Source: Paracoccaceae bacterium (GTDB lineage: Bacteria; Pseudomonadota; Alphaproteobacteria; Rhodobacterales; Rhodobacteraceae). Taken from it: a stretch of DNA of 45,327 bases. A program made the position numbers and the translations under genes. How positions within the stretch are numbered: position 1 is the stretch's first letter; the number at the start of each line of letters is the position of its first letter. The stretch covers positions 1 through 45,327 of the forward strand of contig JAFIEF010000023.1 of the NCBI GenBank assembly GCA_020832655.1, read 5' to 3'. Below, piece after piece: positions 24,033-31,142 of this stretch. Below the pieces are notes generated by a model. It was not told the DNA's origin and ran no database searches. It was given only the letters and a program-made list of their open reading frames with translations.

Positions 24033-24122
24033 GGAGAGGTGCCGGAGTGGTCGAACGGGGCGGTCTCGAAAACCGTTGTCCCTTCACGGGGACCCAGGGT
24101 TCGAATCCCTGTCTCTCCGCCA
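24033..24122 (+). tRNA. tRNA-Ser (anticodon CGA)
   Basis: A 90-base class II tRNA. The acceptor stem is GGAGAGG paired with TCTCTCC, followed by G-CCA, encoded in the DNA. The anticodon loop CTCGAAA (24065-24071) gives anticodon CGA at 24067-24069, reading UCG. A long variable arm and the T-arm GGGTTCGAATCCC are present. Its 3' end is the likely integration site of the downstream island. Confidence 0.97.
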
Positions 24123-24265: not shown

Positions 24266-25540
24266 ATGTTCATTCACAAACGCGGGGAAATCTGGGCGTT
24301 GAAGCGTCGGGTCCCGGCGCGGTACGCCAGGGTCGAGAAGCGCCCGGTCGTCTGGGTCAGCCTCAAGACCGACTCGGAAACCACGGCGCGGCACAAGGCC
24401 GATCAGGTCTGGCAGGGGCTGGTGGCCTCGTGGGAGGCGCGGCTGGTCGGGAATTCTGCGGATGCTGATCGGCGCTATGCAGCGGCTATGGCCCTGGCCG
24501 ATCAGCGCGGGTTCTCGTTTCTGCCTGCGAGTGAGGTGGCCCAGCTGCCGGCGGAGGACCTCTCGGCACGGCTTGAGGCCGTCCTGAAGCAACCGCCCGC
24601 CGCCCAGCCCGCCGAGGCCAGTGCGATACTGGGCGGCGCAGCCATGGCCTACCCGACGCTGTCGGAGGCGTTGACTCAATACTGGGCGCTGTCTGCCTCT
24701 GCGATCCGCAAGAAGTCGGATGACCAACGCCGCCGCTGGGCAAACCCCCGCAAGAAGGCGATCAACAACCTGATTGCCGTGATTGGGGATAAGCGGCTTG
24801 ATCAGATCACCCCGGATGACATGCAGGATTTTCATGATTGGTGGCATGAACGTCTGGAAACCGAAAACCTGACTGCGAATTCCGCGAACAAGGATCAGAC
24901 CCATATCGGGGCGATCCTTGAACTTGTGAACGAACGCAAGCGCTTCCGGCTTGACCTGCCGCTGTCGGGATATCGCTTCAGGGAGGATGAGAAAGAACAA
25001 CGCCCTGCCTTCTCGGATGACTGGATCAGGACAAGGCTGATGGCCAAGGGGGCGCTGGACGGGCTGAACCCGGAGGCGCGTGGTATCACTCTGGGCATGA
25101 TCAACACGGGCTACCGACCGTCGGAAGGCGCGGCCTTGCGCGCAGAGCATATCATGCTGGACGCCGATGTACCCCGCATCGTGATCACGCCAGAGGCGCG
25201 GCGCGAAATCAAGAACAAGGTCTCCAGACGGTATATCCCGCTGACAGGGATCAGCCTTGAGGTTTTCAGGGCTTTCCCGGCCGGATTTGCACGTTACCGC
25301 GAAAACGCATCGAGTTTGTCGTCAACGGTGAACAAGTTCCTGCGCGAGAACGGACTGATGGAGAGCGACAAGCATGTGATGTACAGCTTGCGTCACAGTT
25401 TTGAAGACCGGATGCTGCGCGCAGGCTTCGATGGACGCGTGCGCCGCGATCTGATGGGGCATTCGCTGAAACGGGAGCGCTACGGCGATGGCGGCGGACC
25501 GGCCTTCAAGCGCGATCTCCTGCAGAGGATCGCCCTATGA
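24266..25540 (+). CDS. tyrosine-type site-specific integrase
   Basis: A 424-residue phage-type integrase that recombines the island into tRNA-Ser. The N-terminal part (DUF6538-like start FIHKRGEIWALKRRVP) is followed by a SAM-like core-binding domain (about residues 130-230) and a C-terminal catalytic domain. Catalytic residues: the first Arg in NTGYRPSEGAAL, the box II Arg in YSLRHSF (Tyr replaces the usual first His), His in MGHSLKRERYG and the nucleophile Tyr there. The strong GAGGAGGCGGG site fixes the start. Complete and probably active. Confidence 0.93.
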   Translation: MFIHKRGEIWALKRRVPARYARVEKRPVVWVSLKTDSETTARHKADQVWQGLVASWEARLVGNSADADRRYAAAMALADQRGFSFLPASEVAQLPAEDLSARLEAVLKQPPAAQPAEASAILGGAAMAYPTLSEALTQYWALSASAIRKKSDDQRRRWANPRKKAINNLIAVIGDKRLDQITPDDMQDFHDWWHERLETENLTANSANKDQTHIGAILELVNERKRFRLDLPLSGYRFREDEKEQRPAFSDDWIRTRLMAKGALDGLNPEARGITLGMINTGYRPSEGAALRAEHIMLDADVPRIVITPEARREIKNKVSRRYIPLTGISLEVFRAFPAGFARYRENASSLSSTVNKFLRENGLMESDKHVMYSLRHSFEDRMLRAGFDGRVRRDLMGHSLKRERYGDGGGPAFKRDLLQRIAL

Positions 25541-26648: not shown

Positions 26649-28685
26649 TCACCCTGCGGACGACAGGGGGTGGTCTGTCTTGTCCGCGTTTCCCGGGATT
26701 GGCACCGCCGCAAGCAGTTCGGACAGGCGGTCGCGGTCGAGTTCGCGTTCGTCCATGAGGGCTTGAGCGATCCGCTCCAAATCCCGCACATGCGGTGCCA
26801 GTGCTGCCCGCACTGCGGAGTCGGACGCTTGCAGCCTTTTTTCGACAGCAATCCGGATTTCATGCGAGTGCAGGTTCGGCGGAATTGTCGGATCGTGCCA
26901 TGTCAGCCGATCCGCAAAGCCGAAATTCACCTCGATCTGCAGTGCCATCGCGGTGGCCAATGCCAGATCGCTCGCCCGGCCGGCGCCGCCGGCACCAGAC
27001 GAGATTTCGTTGAAAAACATGGCTTCTGTCACGCGGCCAGCGAGGTAGATCTTGAGCATCCCGTTCGCCAGCGAGGGGGTCAGGACATCGGGCATCTCAC
27101 GCAGAATCTCGCCCCCTCTACCCTGCAAAGCCGCCCTTTTCGGCGTGGAAAACCCGGACAAATGCCCCATCAACAGATGCCCCGCCTCGTGGAGTGCGAC
27201 CCTGCGCAACAGCTCGGGATCGGGCACGGGCGCCACGGCTTCTGCTGCGTCGAAGATGTGCCGGGCAGTCATGGGGATGCGGTCACGGCGGGACTTTGTC
27301 CGGGCATCCCGCAGCATCGCGGCGACCGTCGCACCGGTTTGGCCGATCAGTTGATCCGCCAGCATTTGCGCCTCATCATCGTTCAAAATGTCCGGAATCT
27401 GTGCGGCGATCATCGCCATCACGCCGCTTCGATCCAGCGGATCGACAGGGATATGACAATCAAACCGACCCGGCCGGATGATCGCGGGATCGATCATCGA
27501 CAGATGGTTTGTCGCACCGATGACGATCACGCCCGGCGTGCTGTTCAACCGATCAAGAAGGGTCAGCAGACCGTTGACGACGCCGGTCATGTAACCAGAG
27601 AAACGCGTGTCCCCGGTCCGACTGTAGAAACTGTCGATCTCGTCAATAAACAGGATCGCGGGGGCATTCGTGATCGCTTTTTCGACGGTTTCCGTGAGCA
27701 CACGCAGCATGTCCCCTTGATGGCCATGGCGCTGACAATCCGAGTAACTTGTCCGGATGAAGCTCACCCCGGCAGAACCCGCAAGGGCCTCGGACAACAT
27801 CGTTTTTCCAGTCCCGGGCGGGCCATGAAAGATAAAGGAAGAGGTCACTTCTGACCAGTCCAGACTGCCTTTGCGCCAGTCATTCAGATCATCCAGAAGC
27901 TGCTGAAATGCCGCTTTCGCACCGGGCTGACCATGGACTTTGTCAAGGGTGATCGTGGGCGCTCCAGCCGTGGAAGCGACCATCGGTTTGAGGGCGCGGA
28001 GCGCTTTGCGCGCCCCCGCTGCGCCATCGGCGGCGAAAACGCGCGCGAGTTGCAGCTCGCCCATGCCGCTCAGATCCACTTTCGGGGTCGACTGGCGCGA
28101 CCCCGGAAAAAGGAGCTTCAGGACCGCTTCCAACATCTGCGACGTCGCGGGTTCCAGCCGCAGTGTCGCAGATGCGATGCGCTCGATATCGGGATCGACC
28201 GCGCGCTCCGAGCCCGCGATCACCAACGCCGGGTTGCCGCGCAGCGCAACGTCGCGAATGCTCTCGTTGAAGCGGCGCATGTCATGAACCGTGGCGCCGG
28301 CACTGGGCTGAGCGATGATGTCAAGATTGACGAGATGCTGCGGCCGGGTCTTGCCGGAGCTCATCAATTCGACATTCAGCTTCTCCATCAGAGGCCGCAG
28401 GCGTTTCACATCATCAAAGCCGGGAACAAAGATGAGCGTGACGGCGCCCGGCTGCGGAAGCATCGACGGGCTACCCGCGGCAGCGTGGCTGGACATGAGC
28501 CGCAGGATCATCAGCGCATTGAGACACAGATCCGGACTGGGGCGCTTCCGGCGTGTTCCCGTTTCCGGATCGTCGATGTCACAGCCGTCGAGCGCGTCAT
28601 CATAAAGCGCATCAAAATCACGCGCTGTTTCAGACATGATGCGTTGCGCGAGGGGATAACCGGGAAGAGAGGTATGTTTCGGCAT
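26649..28685 (-). CDS. soluble AAA+ ATPase with FtsH-type M41 protease domain
   Basis: A 678-residue protein. Residues 1-230 form an uncharacterised domain with a helicase- or AAA-like feel (ALVIAGSERAV). Residues 240-440 are an AAA+ module: Walker A GPPGTGKT (288-295), Walker B ILFIDEID (344-351), and a second region of homology ending IIRPGRFD. Then comes an M41 peptidase domain with HEAGH (499-503) and a later Asp in RASDLALAT, as in FtsH. Unlike FtsH it has no membrane helices, so it should be a cytosolic ATP-fuelled zinc protease. The ATG at 28683-28685 has GAAAGG before it. It is the last gene of a three-gene island operon. The target is unknown. Confidence 0.88.
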   Translation of the reverse strand: MPKHTSLPGYPLAQRIMSETARDFDALYDDALDGCDIDDPETGTRRKRPSPDLCLNALMILRLMSSHAAAGSPSMLPQPGAVTLIFVPGFDDVKRLRPLMEKLNVELMSSGKTRPQHLVNLDIIAQPSAGATVHDMRRFNESIRDVALRGNPALVIAGSERAVDPDIERIASATLRLEPATSQMLEAVLKLLFPGSRQSTPKVDLSGMGELQLARVFAADGAAGARKALRALKPMVASTAGAPTITLDKVHGQPGAKAAFQQLLDDLNDWRKGSLDWSEVTSSFIFHGPPGTGKTMLSEALAGSAGVSFIRTSYSDCQRHGHQGDMLRVLTETVEKAITNAPAILFIDEIDSFYSRTGDTRFSGYMTGVVNGLLTLLDRLNSTPGVIVIGATNHLSMIDPAIIRPGRFDCHIPVDPLDRSGVMAMIAAQIPDILNDDEAQMLADQLIGQTGATVAAMLRDARTKSRRDRIPMTARHIFDAAEAVAPVPDPELLRRVALHEAGHLLMGHLSGFSTPKRAALQGRGGEILREMPDVLTPSLANGMLKIYLAGRVTEAMFFNEISSGAGGAGRASDLALATAMALQIEVNFGFADRLTWHDPTIPPNLHSHEIRIAVEKRLQASDSAVRAALAPHVRDLERIAQALMDERELDRDRLSELLAAVPIPGNADKTDHPLSSAG

Positions 28686-28718
28686 GGTGTGGCCTTTCAT
28701 GGGGCAATAGGGGGTTGT

Positions 28719-28739
28719 CCTGTCCCCGAAAGGGGCAGG
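28719..28739. promoter_or_regulatory. hairpin in front of the AAA+ protease gene
   Basis: CCCC-GAAA-GGGG with imperfect outer pairs lies in the gap between the nuclease and the protease genes, about 35 bases before the start codon. It may tune stability or translation of the mRNA. Confidence 0.35.
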
Positions 28740-28767
28740 TTTTCGGGTGTTTTGAGGGTGGGCCGGA

Positions 28768-29313
28768 TCAGATCGCCGCGGGCGTCGCGCAGGTTCCGGA
28801 CAAGCCGAGGTCGGACAGGGCCAGCTGCAAACTGGCGCCGGGAGAGGCCCGCAAGCGGGCTATCTCGGACAGCGCAACCCGATGAGTGTTGCGCCAATCT
28901 GCGGTGAACTTGATCGCGTTTTCGGGCAGGATCACCAAGGCAAGCAGGTCAAAATCGGCGGGGTCATAAGGCTTGGTGCCGGTCGGCCCACGCTGATAGC
29001 CCTTTTTGATATTGAACACATATTGCCCGTCACTGATCACATGCCGGGTCTTGATCTGAACCCGCACCAAAGCGTCAGGCAGCCAGAGGATGCGATCAAA
29101 CGGCTCGTGTTCGCTGCACGGGATCGTGCGTTCGCCCAGCCGCATCATGGTGCTGTCGAACAGCAATTCGCCAGCAGTTCCAAGCTGTTTTGCAAAGCGT
29201 GCCATCACGTTGCCGCCGATTTTGGGATAGTTCCTCAAGGCTTCACGGGCTTCAAAAGCTTCAGGGGCGGGCTCGGGCGGACAAAGCCCGGGGAAATAGA
29301 GTTGCTGGGCCAT
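28768..29313 (-). CDS. PD-(D/E)XK-like nuclease
   Basis: A 181-residue protein. GTAGELLFD (Glu49), then PFDRIL (Asp73) and VRVQIKT (Gln86, Lys88) give the E...D...QxK pattern of small PD-(D/E)XK nucleases. Gln stands where the usual acidic residue would be, a variant also seen in active members of the superfamily. The downstream segment YDPADFDLLALVIL fits the core strand after the active site. The ATG at 29311-29313 follows GGAAAGG; an upstream ATG adds five residues. It lies 82 bases before the AAA+ protease start and likely shares its mRNA. DNA or RNA cleavage is inferred. Confidence 0.7.
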   Translation of the reverse strand: MAQQLYFPGLCPPEPAPEAFEAREALRNYPKIGGNVMARFAKQLGTAGELLFDSTMMRLGERTIPCSEHEPFDRILWLPDALVRVQIKTRHVISDGQYVFNIKKGYQRGPTGTKPYDPADFDLLALVILPENAIKFTADWRNTHRVALSEIARLRASPGASLQLALSDLGLSGTCATPAAI

Positions 29314-29344
29314 AGGCGGCCTTTCCATGTTTGATAGAGGGATG

Positions 29345-29369
29345 GACGGGGCGCATGACGGGCCCCGTC
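29345..29369. promoter_or_regulatory. hairpin in front of the nuclease gene
   Basis: GACGGGGC (29345-29352) and GCCCCGTC (29362-29369) form an 8-bp stem with a 9-base loop. It sits in the gap between the 168-residue gene and the nuclease gene. Both gaps in this operon therefore carry GC-rich hairpins. Confidence 0.4.
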
Positions 29370-29386
29370 AATTGGACTGCGCCGGA

Positions 29387-29893
29387 TCAGGCCGGGATCG
29401 GCATCGCCGGATCAAGCATGGGCGGCTCATGCCCCGGCCCTCCGAATTCCCTCAGCTCTGCCATGTCTGAAAAGACGGAGAAAAATTCCGTCTGCATCCG
29501 GAAAATGCGGTGCTTCGAGGGATCGGTGAGAAAGATATCCTGATGATCCCGGACGCGGGCAAACAGATGCTGTTTGTCATCATCATCTGTTGTTTCGAAC
29601 AGGGTTTTCAGGAGGAAAGCCAGGCGCATCAGGCCTTTGTCCGCGGGAATTTCCGGAATGTGTTCGAGGATATCAAAGCAGCCCTCAATCAGCCGCTCCC
29701 GAAGGGTTTCCGCACGGCGCAGATCATTGCCGAAATGCTGCGACATCGGGTCGACATCGCTGTGATCGATCAGCATCTCGGCATCAATCGCAGCCCGGAA
29801 CAGCCGAAGAAACGCGGGGAATTCATGCACGATTGTGCTCGCGGGGGAGTCTTTCGGGTCACGCGAGGGCGTGTTATCACTGGCATCAGCCAT
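29387..29893 (-). CDS. helical protein of unknown function, first gene of island operon
   Basis: A 168-residue acidic, mostly helical protein; I do not recognise a family. The middle part (FRAAIDAEMLIDHSDVDP, later ERLIEGCFDILEHI) suggests an all-alpha bundle. The tail is rich in Pro and Gly. No signal peptide or membrane helix is present. GAGGAGG before the ATG gives it the strongest ribosome-binding site in the operon. It is divergent from the RHH regulator, with the dyad at 29925-29958 between them. It could be an adaptor, sensor or immunity partner of the protease-nuclease pair; that is a guess from position. Confidence 0.7.
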   Translation of the reverse strand: MADASDNTPSRDPKDSPASTIVHEFPAFLRLFRAAIDAEMLIDHSDVDPMSQHFGNDLRRAETLRERLIEGCFDILEHIPEIPADKGLMRLAFLLKTLFETTDDDDKQHLFARVRDHQDIFLTDPSKHRIFRMQTEFFSVFSDMAELREFGGPGHEPPMLDPAMPIPA

Positions 29894-29924
29894 GGGGGCC
29901 TCCTCAATAGGTCCGTGTGGTTAG

Positions 29925-29958
29925 AGCCTTGGCAAGGGCTGCAACCCTTGCCTTGGCT
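29925..29958. promoter_or_regulatory. candidate operator between RHH gene and island operon
   Basis: A 34-base dyad: AGCC-TT-GGCAAGGG (29925-29938), spacer CTGCAA, CCCTTGCC-TT-GGCT (29945-29958). The inner 8 and outer 4 bases pair; the two TT positions do not. It also contains the direct repeat GCCTTGGC at 29926 and 29950. Ribbon-helix-helix repressors bind such paired half-sites. An AT-rich promoter-like stretch follows at about 29960-29995. Confidence 0.55.
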
Positions 29959-30001
29959 CGCAATACTTGGTATCAAAAATAATAAAATACAAGAGGGGCG
30001 G

Positions 30002-30184
30002 ATGAAAAAAGTTGGCAGACCGAAAACTGACACCGAAGGCGTGATGGTTCGCCTGCCTCGCGAAATGATAGACTGGTTAGACGATCTGCGCCGGGAACAG
30101 AAAGACATACCCACTCGCCCAGAAATGATCCGCCGTATTCTTCAGGAAAAACTGGAAACAGGTGAAAACCCAAAAGCTGAATAG
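30002..30184 (+). CDS. small ribbon-helix-helix-type regulator
   Basis: A 60-residue basic protein beginning MKKVGRPKTDTEGVMVRLP. A short beta strand (EGVMVRLP) is followed by two helices (REMIDWLDDLRREQ and TRPEMIRRILQEKL), the layout of a MetJ/Arc/CopG-type DNA-binding domain. It should act as a dimer. AGAGGGGCGG before the ATG at 30002 sets the start; a longer frame upstream is the shadow of the divergent gene. It probably represses itself and the divergent operon through the dyad at 29925-29958. An antitoxin role was considered, but no partner toxin overlaps it. Confidence 0.75.
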   Translation: MKKVGRPKTDTEGVMVRLPREMIDWLDDLRREQKDIPTRPEMIRRILQEKLETGENPKAE

Positions 30185-30218: not shown

Positions 30219-31142
30219 CTATCCCCAGGGCAGCGGCCCCTCGTCCAAAACCTGTCCGAACACCCGTTCACGATGCCATCGCAGATTTTCAGGGTGCGGA
30301 TGGTGCCGATGATCCGCTGGTTTCAGCAACCTGCCACTCGGATGCAGCAACCGGTCAATCACATCGCTTGGCACCTTGTTGCGGGAGACAAGAACCGTCT
30401 CGCAATCATCGGCAACGGAAACCAAGCCGCGGTCAAACATCCAATGCAGGGTTCCAGACAGGGCCAGCCCATTGCGGACCGAGTCACTGCCCGAGCTTTC
30501 CACCGGCCGGATATGGGCCGCCTGCACCTCGGGCCGCCCGCCGCCATTGCGCAGGCGCAGACCCGACATGGCACAGCGGTAATCATAGGCCACACGCACC
30601 TGTCGGCGAAACGCCACATCACGATACGGCCGACGGGTCAGGCGTTCGAGCACCGGGCGATCGAATGTCGTGGCTTGGTCATCCATCCCGGCGGAGATGG
30701 GGTCGTAAGCGGTGGCCTCGATCCGTTCTAGGTCCTGCGGCAGTCCCAGATTGACTATCCGGGCGAAATCGGCATCAGGCAGGCGCCGAACGGCACGTTG
30801 CACCAAACCACCCTGCTTGAGCGATCCATCGGGGGCCGCCAAGGCGCTTTCCACCGCTTGCCCCTTGTGCAACCGGGGCACGGATAGATCAAAGGGCAGA
30901 AAGCTTCCCGGCTCAATCAGGGCAAGATACCGCCCCTCAACCCCAGGCTTGGGGATCACTCTGGCAATCTTGGCCACCGCGAAATACCCCCGCGGCCCTG
31001 CCTTGACCGGCTCATAATAAACGATCCAATCCCCAATCGCTGTTTGAATGGCCTTGAGATATGCCTTGGGGAAATCATAAACCACATCGGGTTCATCATC
31101 ATAAATCGAGTCAGCCTTGTGCAGCAGAACCAGTTTTCCCAT
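30219..31142 (-). CDS. HNH endonuclease with possible EVE-like N-terminal domain
   Basis: A 307-residue protein. The C-terminal HNH_2-type nuclease core has His210 in AAHIRP, Asn224 in NGLALSG and His233 in LHWMFDRGL, the three expected metal and catalytic positions. The N-terminal 90 residues (YDFPKAYLKA, GDWIVYYEP, GYFAVAKIARVIPKP) resemble PUA/EVE-type domains that read modified bases, as in modification-dependent restriction enzymes. This suggests a type IV-like restriction role, which is inference. It is convergent with the RHH gene and has its own promoter near 31143. Confidence 0.8.
   Translation of the reverse strand: MGKLVLLHKADSIYDDEPDVVYDFPKAYLKAIQTAIGDWIVYYEPVKAGPRGYFAVAKIARVIPKPGVEGRYLALIEPGSFLPFDLSVPRLHKGQAVESALAAPDGSLKQGGLVQRAVRRLPDADFARIVNLGLPQDLERIEATAYDPISAGMDDQATTFDRPVLERLTRRPYRDVAFRRQVRVAYDYRCAMSGLRLRNGGGRPEVQAAHIRPVESSGSDSVRNGLALSGTLHWMFDRGLVSVADDCETVLVSRNKVPSDVIDRLLHPSGRLLKPADHRHHPHPENLRWHRERVFGQVLDEGPLPWG

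Follow-up and report, generated by a model that had tools for sequence, protein, structure and literature searches.

Three adjacent minus-strand genes in the contig JAFIEF010000023.1 of a Paracoccaceae bacterium (assembly GCA_020832655.1; the whole stretch of 45,327 nucleotides, positions 1 to 45,327, is called the window below) encode a small helical protein, a predicted PD-(D/E)XK nuclease and a soluble protease of the AAA+/M41 (FtsH) type. As judged from their relatives, the three genes are part of a larger unit that is conserved in Rhodobacterales, bacteria of marine type, and usually consists of a divergent ribbon-helix-helix (RHH) gene, a hairpin leader, the helical gene, a nuclease gene and the protease gene. 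The nuclease slot of this unit is exchangeable and can hold a PD-(D/E)XK protein, a GIY-YIG-like zinc protein or a CoiA-like protein. These features suggest a candidate for an undescribed self-defence or addiction device. Our preferred interpretation, to which we assign a probability of about 0.4, is a mobile module of the toxin-antitoxin or abortive-defence type that brings its own protease; the helical protein would be the guard of the nuclease and the protease the switch. In the window the unit is laid out as follows.

26649..28700, minus strand: AAA+/M41 protease gene (683 residues; 678 if the start is at 28685)
28768..29313, minus strand: PD-(D/E)XK nuclease gene, occupant of the exchangeable nuclease slot (181 residues)
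29387..29893, minus strand: gene of the small helical protein (168 residues), the proposed restrainer and substrate
29873..29959, minus strand: conserved leader, with the hairpin at 29924-29959 followed by the Shine-Dalgarno region and the first codons of the helical gene
30002..30184, plus strand: divergent RHH (CopG-type) regulator gene (60 residues; RHH_1 1.4e-4, above the gathering score)

The original prediction had described a three-gene operon with gaps of 73 and 82 bases. All three open reading frames (ORFs) were present where it had placed them, and what it had missed were the divergent RHH gene, the leader and the exchangeability of the nuclease. The 73-base gap between the helical and nuclease genes was found as described. 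The gap between the nuclease and protease genes is 67 bases if counted from the first Met of the protease, and 82 only from the second Met (28685), which follows AAAGG and is the likelier start.

Gene order and the nuclease slot

The 683-residue protein matches the Pfam families AAA (1e-30) and Peptidase_M41 (7e-9), both above their gathering scores. Its AlphaFold2 (AF2) model has a mean predicted local distance difference test score (pLDDT) of 88.6, and the AAA-M41 part of the model matches cytosolic structures of FtsH in Foldseek (2ce7_D, template modelling score 0.81 by target length). K299, E354, N398, R412, H504, E505, H508 and D578 are invariant in 49 aligned relatives, and D353 and R409 nearly so; from what is known of FtsH we take these residues to be the Walker A and B motifs, the arginine fingers, the HExxH motif and the third zinc ligand. 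The last two (H504, E505, H508 and D578) are kept in 49 of the 49 rows. The protein shares with FtsH the AAA+ and M41 domains, the zinc site and the cytosolic fold; it differs from it in that, according to the model, an alpha/beta region (about residues 56-244) takes the place of the membrane part, and in its patchy occurrence on mobile elements, mostly with partner genes. No membrane anchor or periplasmic region was seen in the model or on reading the sequence, no dedicated membrane predictor being used. The score against the NCBIfam FtsH equivalog TIGR01241 (146 bits) is below the curated cut-off of 600. These data support the originally proposed assignment as a soluble protease of the FtsH type, here a zinc metalloprotease with intact ATPase and zinc-site residues. 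That the N-terminal domain could be a second, dead AAA domain was not supported by profile comparison with the AAA part (probability 2.7%, E 0.017).

The assignment of the 181-residue protein as a predicted PD-(D/E)XK nuclease, also part of the original prediction, is supported by a PDDEXK_5 match (6.1e-7; 30.0 bits, gathering score 26.1) and by the motif, of which D73, Q86 and K88 are invariant in seven aligned sequences and E49 is present in five of the seven. A weak profile match to 2ost was also obtained (E=0.038). In this family (C5) the Pfam gathering score was exceeded by P0002 and L077. The second kind of occupant (C2) is a zinc protein with ten invariant cysteines, including four CxxC pairs. 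In its C-terminal part Y224, K239, G241, R249 and E280 are invariant in 25 members, a set that we liken to the GIY-YIG motif; Pfam matches are weak (MUG113 in 9 of the 25, best 5.9e-4; T5orf172 in 5, best 1.4e-3). The third kind, encountered once (L062), is CoiA-like; its matches to DUF7830 (2.8e-4) and CoiA_nuc (0.13) do not reach the cut-offs. A quick tree built from 87 proteases requires at least eight changes of the C2/C5 label. The source genome itself holds one copy of each of the first two kinds: its second locus contains helical, GIY-YIG-like and protease genes, and neither RHH gene nor leader was found there. It also has a lone helical gene with a leader.

At E<=1e-50 the protease (P0001) was detected in 33 of 196 Rhodobacterales genomes. 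In a larger draw, which repeats the 196, the same threshold gave matches in 63 of 390 genomes, not every match having been inspected, and none in the four congeners listed in that draw. Sequences were fetched for 38 of the 42 protease places of the 196-genome search (left out were the window, the G181 duplicate, G071 and G143), for two further places, for the best 80 of 201 relatives in named genomes and for 40 of the 48 new places of the 390-genome draw. Their ORFs were called by a home-made codon score and then clustered, and the six frames were scanned with home-made profiles. Removal of eight duplicates, with some near-copies remaining, left 114 protease loci, of which 99 had at least 3 kb upstream.

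The gene order is fixed over very divergent sequences. Among the 99 loci the nuclease is GIY-YIG-like in 42, of the PD-(D/E)XK kind in 20 and CoiA-like in one; in two (L145, L171) a GIY-YIG-looking ORF lies downstream, and 34 have no nuclease. An RHH match stands at its place in 53 loci, and RHH, helical and nuclease genes occur together in 45 (32 with C2, 13 with C5). The helical gene was undetected in nine loci with a nuclease, seven of which have at that place an ORF of helical size and positive coding score and two (L111, L149) do not. A Rhodobacter capsulatus strain carries the helical, PD-(D/E)XK and protease genes. The downstream ORFs mentioned above (L145:8371-9195 and L171:7809-8321, recognised by eye) represent another arrangement of the same pairing. 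In other alphaproteobacterial orders AAA-M41 relatives without a nuclease and with other neighbours were observed (L092, L147, L150, L157, L160, L166 and others), in the genera Sinorhizobium, Nitrospirillum, Rhodopseudomonas, Microvirga and Azospirillum.

The association is also seen if one starts from the nuclease. In the 196 genomes C2 gave 31 places at E<=1e-100, and a protease gene adjoins 28 of them; of the other three, L266 is at a contig edge, L263 has a protease gene cut short beside a transposase-like ORF, and L265 has none in 10.5 kb. Five weaker C2 rows were excluded from this count: three pieces in G051, one in G064, and G020:C70 (L270), where a partial nuclease gene is accompanied by RHH and helical genes and by no protease. 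The C5 profile found eight strong places in the same genomes (two with an internal stop), seven with the protease and one at a contig edge, and one further weak partial match without it (G125). In 72,556 plasmid records the PD-(D/E)XK family had eight matches, seven of them adjoining a protease gene. The eighth, from Paracoccus jeotgali (L241), has helical and nuclease genes and no protease within the 10.4 kb read; its divergent 59-residue ORF looks RHH-like by eye and was not matched by the RHH profile. A class-wide search with the GIY-YIG-like protein found only the source genome itself among 289 genomes, a sample that held few Rhodobacterales. The co-occurrence across unrelated islands that the original prediction had proposed as a check was thus found, on different islands and on plasmids, and scattered homologues did not turn up. 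It could be argued that these are separate genes that merely share islands, as the 34 protease loci without any nuclease, 21 of them in other orders judging by their record titles, would allow; the fixed order, the co-occurrence seen from the nuclease side and the co-variation described below make this highly improbable.

The helical protein and the proposed mechanism

The AF2 model of the 168-residue protein consists of five helices (mean pLDDT 86.6), in agreement with the helical character predicted originally. Pfam gave no match, and of 528 Foldseek matches at E<=10 none reached E<=0.001, so that no significant PDB match was obtained. Of the structure predictions proposed at the outset, the models of the N-terminal protease region (alpha/beta) and of the helical protein were therefore obtained, and a fold assignment for the latter was not. 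It is the least conserved part of the unit, with a median normalised similarity of 0.000 versus 0.178 for the protease, 0.246 for the nuclease and 0.500 for the RHH protein.

Two properties connect the helical protein with the protease. First, its C-terminus is -AA in 16 of 60 cases versus 10 among 237 other genes taken from these loci (p=1.4e-6), and -A in 30 of 60 versus 34 of 237; the Ala-Ala tail was noticed before it was tested, and L068 and L140 count twice among the 60. In held-out clusters, taken from loci fetched later, without a member in the first set and compared with the same 237 genes, -AA was found in 8 of 16 at 60% identity (p=1.1e-6) and in 4 of 8 at 40% identity (p=4e-4). AAA+ proteases are known to recognise Ala-Ala tails as degrons, as in ssrA. 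Second, helical similarity follows protease similarity over 57 loci (Mantel r 0.655, 0 of 999 permutations; partial 0.646). Among the 34 C2 loci it correlates with nuclease similarity when the protease is controlled for (partial r 0.53, 0 of 999), and with protease similarity when the nuclease is (0.35); for the 17 C5 loci the corresponding values are 0.25 (14 of 999) and 0.57. Shared ancestry can inflate such Mantel-type figures. A protein that tracks both the protease and, within C2, the nuclease is what one would expect of a go-between.

These observations can be combined into the following candidate mechanism. The RHH protein may autoregulate the divergent promoters. The helical protein would restrain the nuclease, presumably by binding it, and the cytosolic AAA+-M41 protease would recognise the helical protein, often by its Ala-Ala C-terminal tail, and destroy it. 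If synthesis of the helical protein failed or the protease were triggered, the nuclease would be freed and would cut nucleic acid, which would kill the cell or stop a phage. The benefit could be phage defence or retention of the element; like the trigger and the direction of control, it is presumed. We infer, in line with the original prediction, that the protease may act on the nuclease or on its helical inhibitor, which is compatible with the tails, the co-variation and the protease-less loci.

The roles could also be reversed: the protease would be the antitoxin that unfolds or degrades the nuclease, with the helical protein as delivery adaptor, and the nuclease would accumulate when the protease is lost or blocked. 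Adaptors can carry degron-like tails, and the nuclease is exchanged while protease and helical protein stay together, both as this arrangement would have it; RosmerTA offers a precedent (PMC10440598). The loci without an intact protease speak against it. In L241, L263 and L265 the helical gene is present together with an open nuclease gene, a state that should be lethal under this arrangement unless a copy acts in trans, and these loci favour the helical protein as guard, another protease being excluded only in the L263 genome (G045), where none was found at E<=1e-50. We consider the reversed arrangement rather unlikely.

Several observations weigh against the helical protein as a guard removed by the protease. 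The helical protein of the window ends in -PIPA, 30 of the 60 helical proteins of the first set end in a residue other than Ala, the GIY-YIG-like nucleases likewise end in -AA in 7 of 46 cases, and an enrichment of tails is no proof of degradation. Given the protease, helical similarity hardly follows the type of nuclease (partial r 0.102, 3 of 999, n 57), which is odd for a nuclease-specific inhibitor. The genome of L265 holds a complete second copy (L079), and L241 is known only from the stretch read. In thirteen Rhodobacterales protease loci with 3 kb upstream no nuclease was found (e.g. L059, L066, L083, L095, L097, L102, L138 and L153). The role in defence suggested originally was not borne out by the neighbourhood: about 5 of 100 neighbouring genes match PADLOC models at E<=1e-15 versus roughly 8 of 100 control genes. 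These figures, approximate since matches are listed by family and not by member, come from 100 of 127 eligible neighbours, recombinase- and relaxase-like clusters excluded, and 100 of 159 eligible controls, whose matches look generic in our judgement. As known defence genes are not enriched nearby, there is no guilt by association for a defence role.

The leader and the divergent RHH gene

In the window the RHH gene is recognised by the family profile at E=9e-25, and the leader by our covariance model (CM R1) with 75.2 bits, the window being one of the 20 sequences from which the model was built. Leaders were taken only from loci with an RHH match (68 regions); L086, L148 and L216 were dropped by hand, as were five regions without an aligned start codon, which left 60. 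The anchor was found in 53 of them, with 44 distinct arm pairs. The arms pair at 4.92 of 6 positions versus 4.18 in permuted arms given the same search (standard deviation 0.08, maximum 4.49 of 200). The median z of hairpin energy was -3.52 relative to mononucleotide shuffles, with 46 of 53 under -1.64, and for eight leaders folded whole z ranged from -1.37 to -4.41 relative to dinucleotide shuffles, with five at -3.43 or lower.

A first alignment (A9, 50 of the 60 leaders) yielded a consensus fold without pairs, which we attribute to the differing lengths of the hairpins. In that alignment the first helical codons have a wobble T in 50 of 50 leaders at residue 93 and in nearly all at residue 81, a conservation that amounts to a nucleotide-level constraint within the coding sequence. 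Covariation was examined in 20 leaders whose best register is 36 nucleotides; the register was picked by the pairing of the outer six positions, so that outer pairs are favoured in the following counts. In this set 197 of 240 pairs form versus 145.2 in permutations (standard deviation 5.8, maximum 166 of 2000). When a second helix was added, 77.5% of cells paired versus 60.0% in shuffles, and changes on both sides occurred in 58 cells versus 17.2 (slid controls at most 20). The second helix, around the Shine-Dalgarno sequence, is weak (63.8% of cells pair; median z of the region -1.18). G-U pairs account for only 3 of the 248 paired cells, and a DNA dyad, e.g. an RHH operator, is therefore possible as well as an RNA hairpin. 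Folding is more stable in the gaps between helical and nuclease genes than in control gaps (median z -1.49 versus -0.52, p=0.007); in those between nuclease and protease genes it is not (p=0.44). The best Rfam overlap, RF00043 (R1162-like plasmid antisense RNA; window 29886-29960, minus strand), had 33.1 bits, the gathering score being 55.

The leader model matched 28 of 56 further sources at E<=5.3e-6, including the protease-less loci L241, L263 and L265 and the lone helical gene of L089. It did not match at nuclease-less proteases such as L059, L066, L083, L095 and L097, nor in L084, L152, L213 and L228, although these have a helical gene. A search of 101 genomes at E<=0.01 yielded 44 matches, spread over 26 of them, and 13 new places were read. 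Of these, L271, L274 and L279 resemble module remnants, L272 and L273 are truncated by the contig end, a weak RHH-like match is all that L275 shows, and in L276-L278 the match precedes genes that look phage- or transfer-like by eye; the matches of L275-L278 have E values of 8.8e-6 to 5.8e-8. Those of L280-L283, with E values of 2.9e-4 or worse, seem to be chance matches. In L271, L274 and L089 leader and helical gene remain without nuclease and protease, beside recombinase- or transposase-like genes. Mobile elements of Rhodobacterales may use the hairpin leader more widely for regulation.

Mobility and known systems

The protease is present on 18 plasmid records (Sulfitobacter, Paracoccus, Roseovarius and others), and in 41 sources genes near the protease loci include a recombinase-like cluster (C3) in ten, an integrase-like one (C6) in five and a relaxase-like one (C11) in four. 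Pfam evidence is limited to the window member of C6 and to C11, the latter matching Mob_Pre at 5.7e-5, below its cut-off; C3 was recognised as serine recombinase by eye. From the plasmids and these recurring genes we conclude that the module is mobile. In the window it is surrounded by the following features.

24033..24122, plus strand: tRNA-Ser(CGA), the probable insertion point
24266..25540, plus strand: island tyrosine integrase gene (Phage_integrase 3.9e-8; phrog_1 3.3e-28), starting 143 bases downstream of the tRNA gene
30219..31142, minus strand: HNH gene (Pfam) beside the module, on the side opposite to tRNA and integrase
from 31483: ilvD-like gene (translation read by eye), on the same side as the HNH gene

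The far border of the island could not be placed, since no repeat of the tRNA-Ser 3' end was found elsewhere in the window; setting the window against one congener (G134) did not yield a border either. The C-terminal part of the HNH protein resembles phosphorothioate-DNA restriction enzymes (NF045808, 86.7 bits, cut-off 180), and its gene has no cluster partner among the fetched neighbourhoods. Carriage by phages was considered and rejected: P0001 had six matches in 50,697 phage records (28.1-32.9% identity), one annotated as ftsH and five in unannotated records, all taken for FtsH-like genes. In IMG/VR the protease alignment matched at least 25 loci at 23-36% identity, in most cases limited to the AAA part, and the PD-(D/E)XK alignment 11 loci at 26-33%; the GIY-YIG-like protein of the source genome had no matches.

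This setting would also suit a module that serves the maintenance or mobility of integrative elements; a homing-style nuclease would then aid spread or exclude rivals, and the protease and the RHH protein would time expression at transfer. Homing enzymes use both nuclease folds, recombinase-, integrase- and relaxase-like genes recur nearby, a few phage- or transfer-like genes are preceded by leader-like matches, and plasmid records, which label parts of the unit 'AAA family ATPase' or 'hypothetical protein', name some PD-(D/E)XK copies 'group I intron-associated PD-(D/E)XK endonuclease'. Known homing systems, on the other hand, are not known to need a protease, and the same cassette stands beside different recombinases and on plasmids; we regard this role as unlikely.

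The closest parallels to the guarded nuclease that we propose are found among toxin-antitoxin systems. Classical type II operons depend on Lon or ClpP for degradation of the antitoxin. The module would share with them a labile partner protein, an RHH-type regulator and possibly a nuclease toxin, and would differ in encoding its protease within the operon and in keeping three to four genes together. In RosmerTA and Panacea a shared control protein is combined with exchangeable unrelated toxins, and the RosmerTA control protein, with a metalloprotease domain, serves as antitoxin to varied toxins (PMC10440598). The module likewise has a shared control part with swappable effectors, and it differs by the AAA+ motor protease, the separate helical protein, the RHH gene and the leader. 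ImmA- or Panacea-type Pfam families had no match in the six window proteins scanned, a sequence relation not being looked for directly. IetAS pairs an AAA ATPase, IetA, with a subtilisin-like protease, IetS. The PADLOC IetA models match the module protease (2.4e-22) in its AAA domain only (residues 284-469); IetAS has another type of protease and is not known to have a nuclease slot, and none of the five window proteins searched against PADLOC matched IetS. PADLOC 2.0.0 also gave no match for the 181- and 168-residue proteins (E<=0.1) and, at E<=0.01, none for 25 proteins of the GIY-YIG-like family. The unit as such has no entry in PADLOC, NCBIfam, Pfam or Rfam, and no account of it was found in the part of the open-access literature that was searched, most subscription papers and all preprints lying outside that coverage. 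We rate the unit as a candidate variant of protease-controlled toxin modules, not as a separate category. It is doubtful whether one may go further and define a class of mobile conflict systems with an effector-independent chassis (RHH protein, structured leader, degron-tailed guard and cytosolic FtsH-like protease), into which unrelated nucleases would be plugged and in which proteolysis of the guard would arm the nuclease.

If the proposed mechanism is true, a toxin-like nuclease would be triggered by an AAA+ protease encoded in its own operon, not by housekeeping Lon or ClpP, and its effectors would be swappable. The unit would then provide a clean system for studying the part that proteolysis plays in the choice between restraint and cell death, and a new lead for the discovery of defence genes in alphaproteobacteria. 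With matches in about one in six of the sampled genomes of the order, and with the Rhodobacter capsulatus strain, it is common enough for study.

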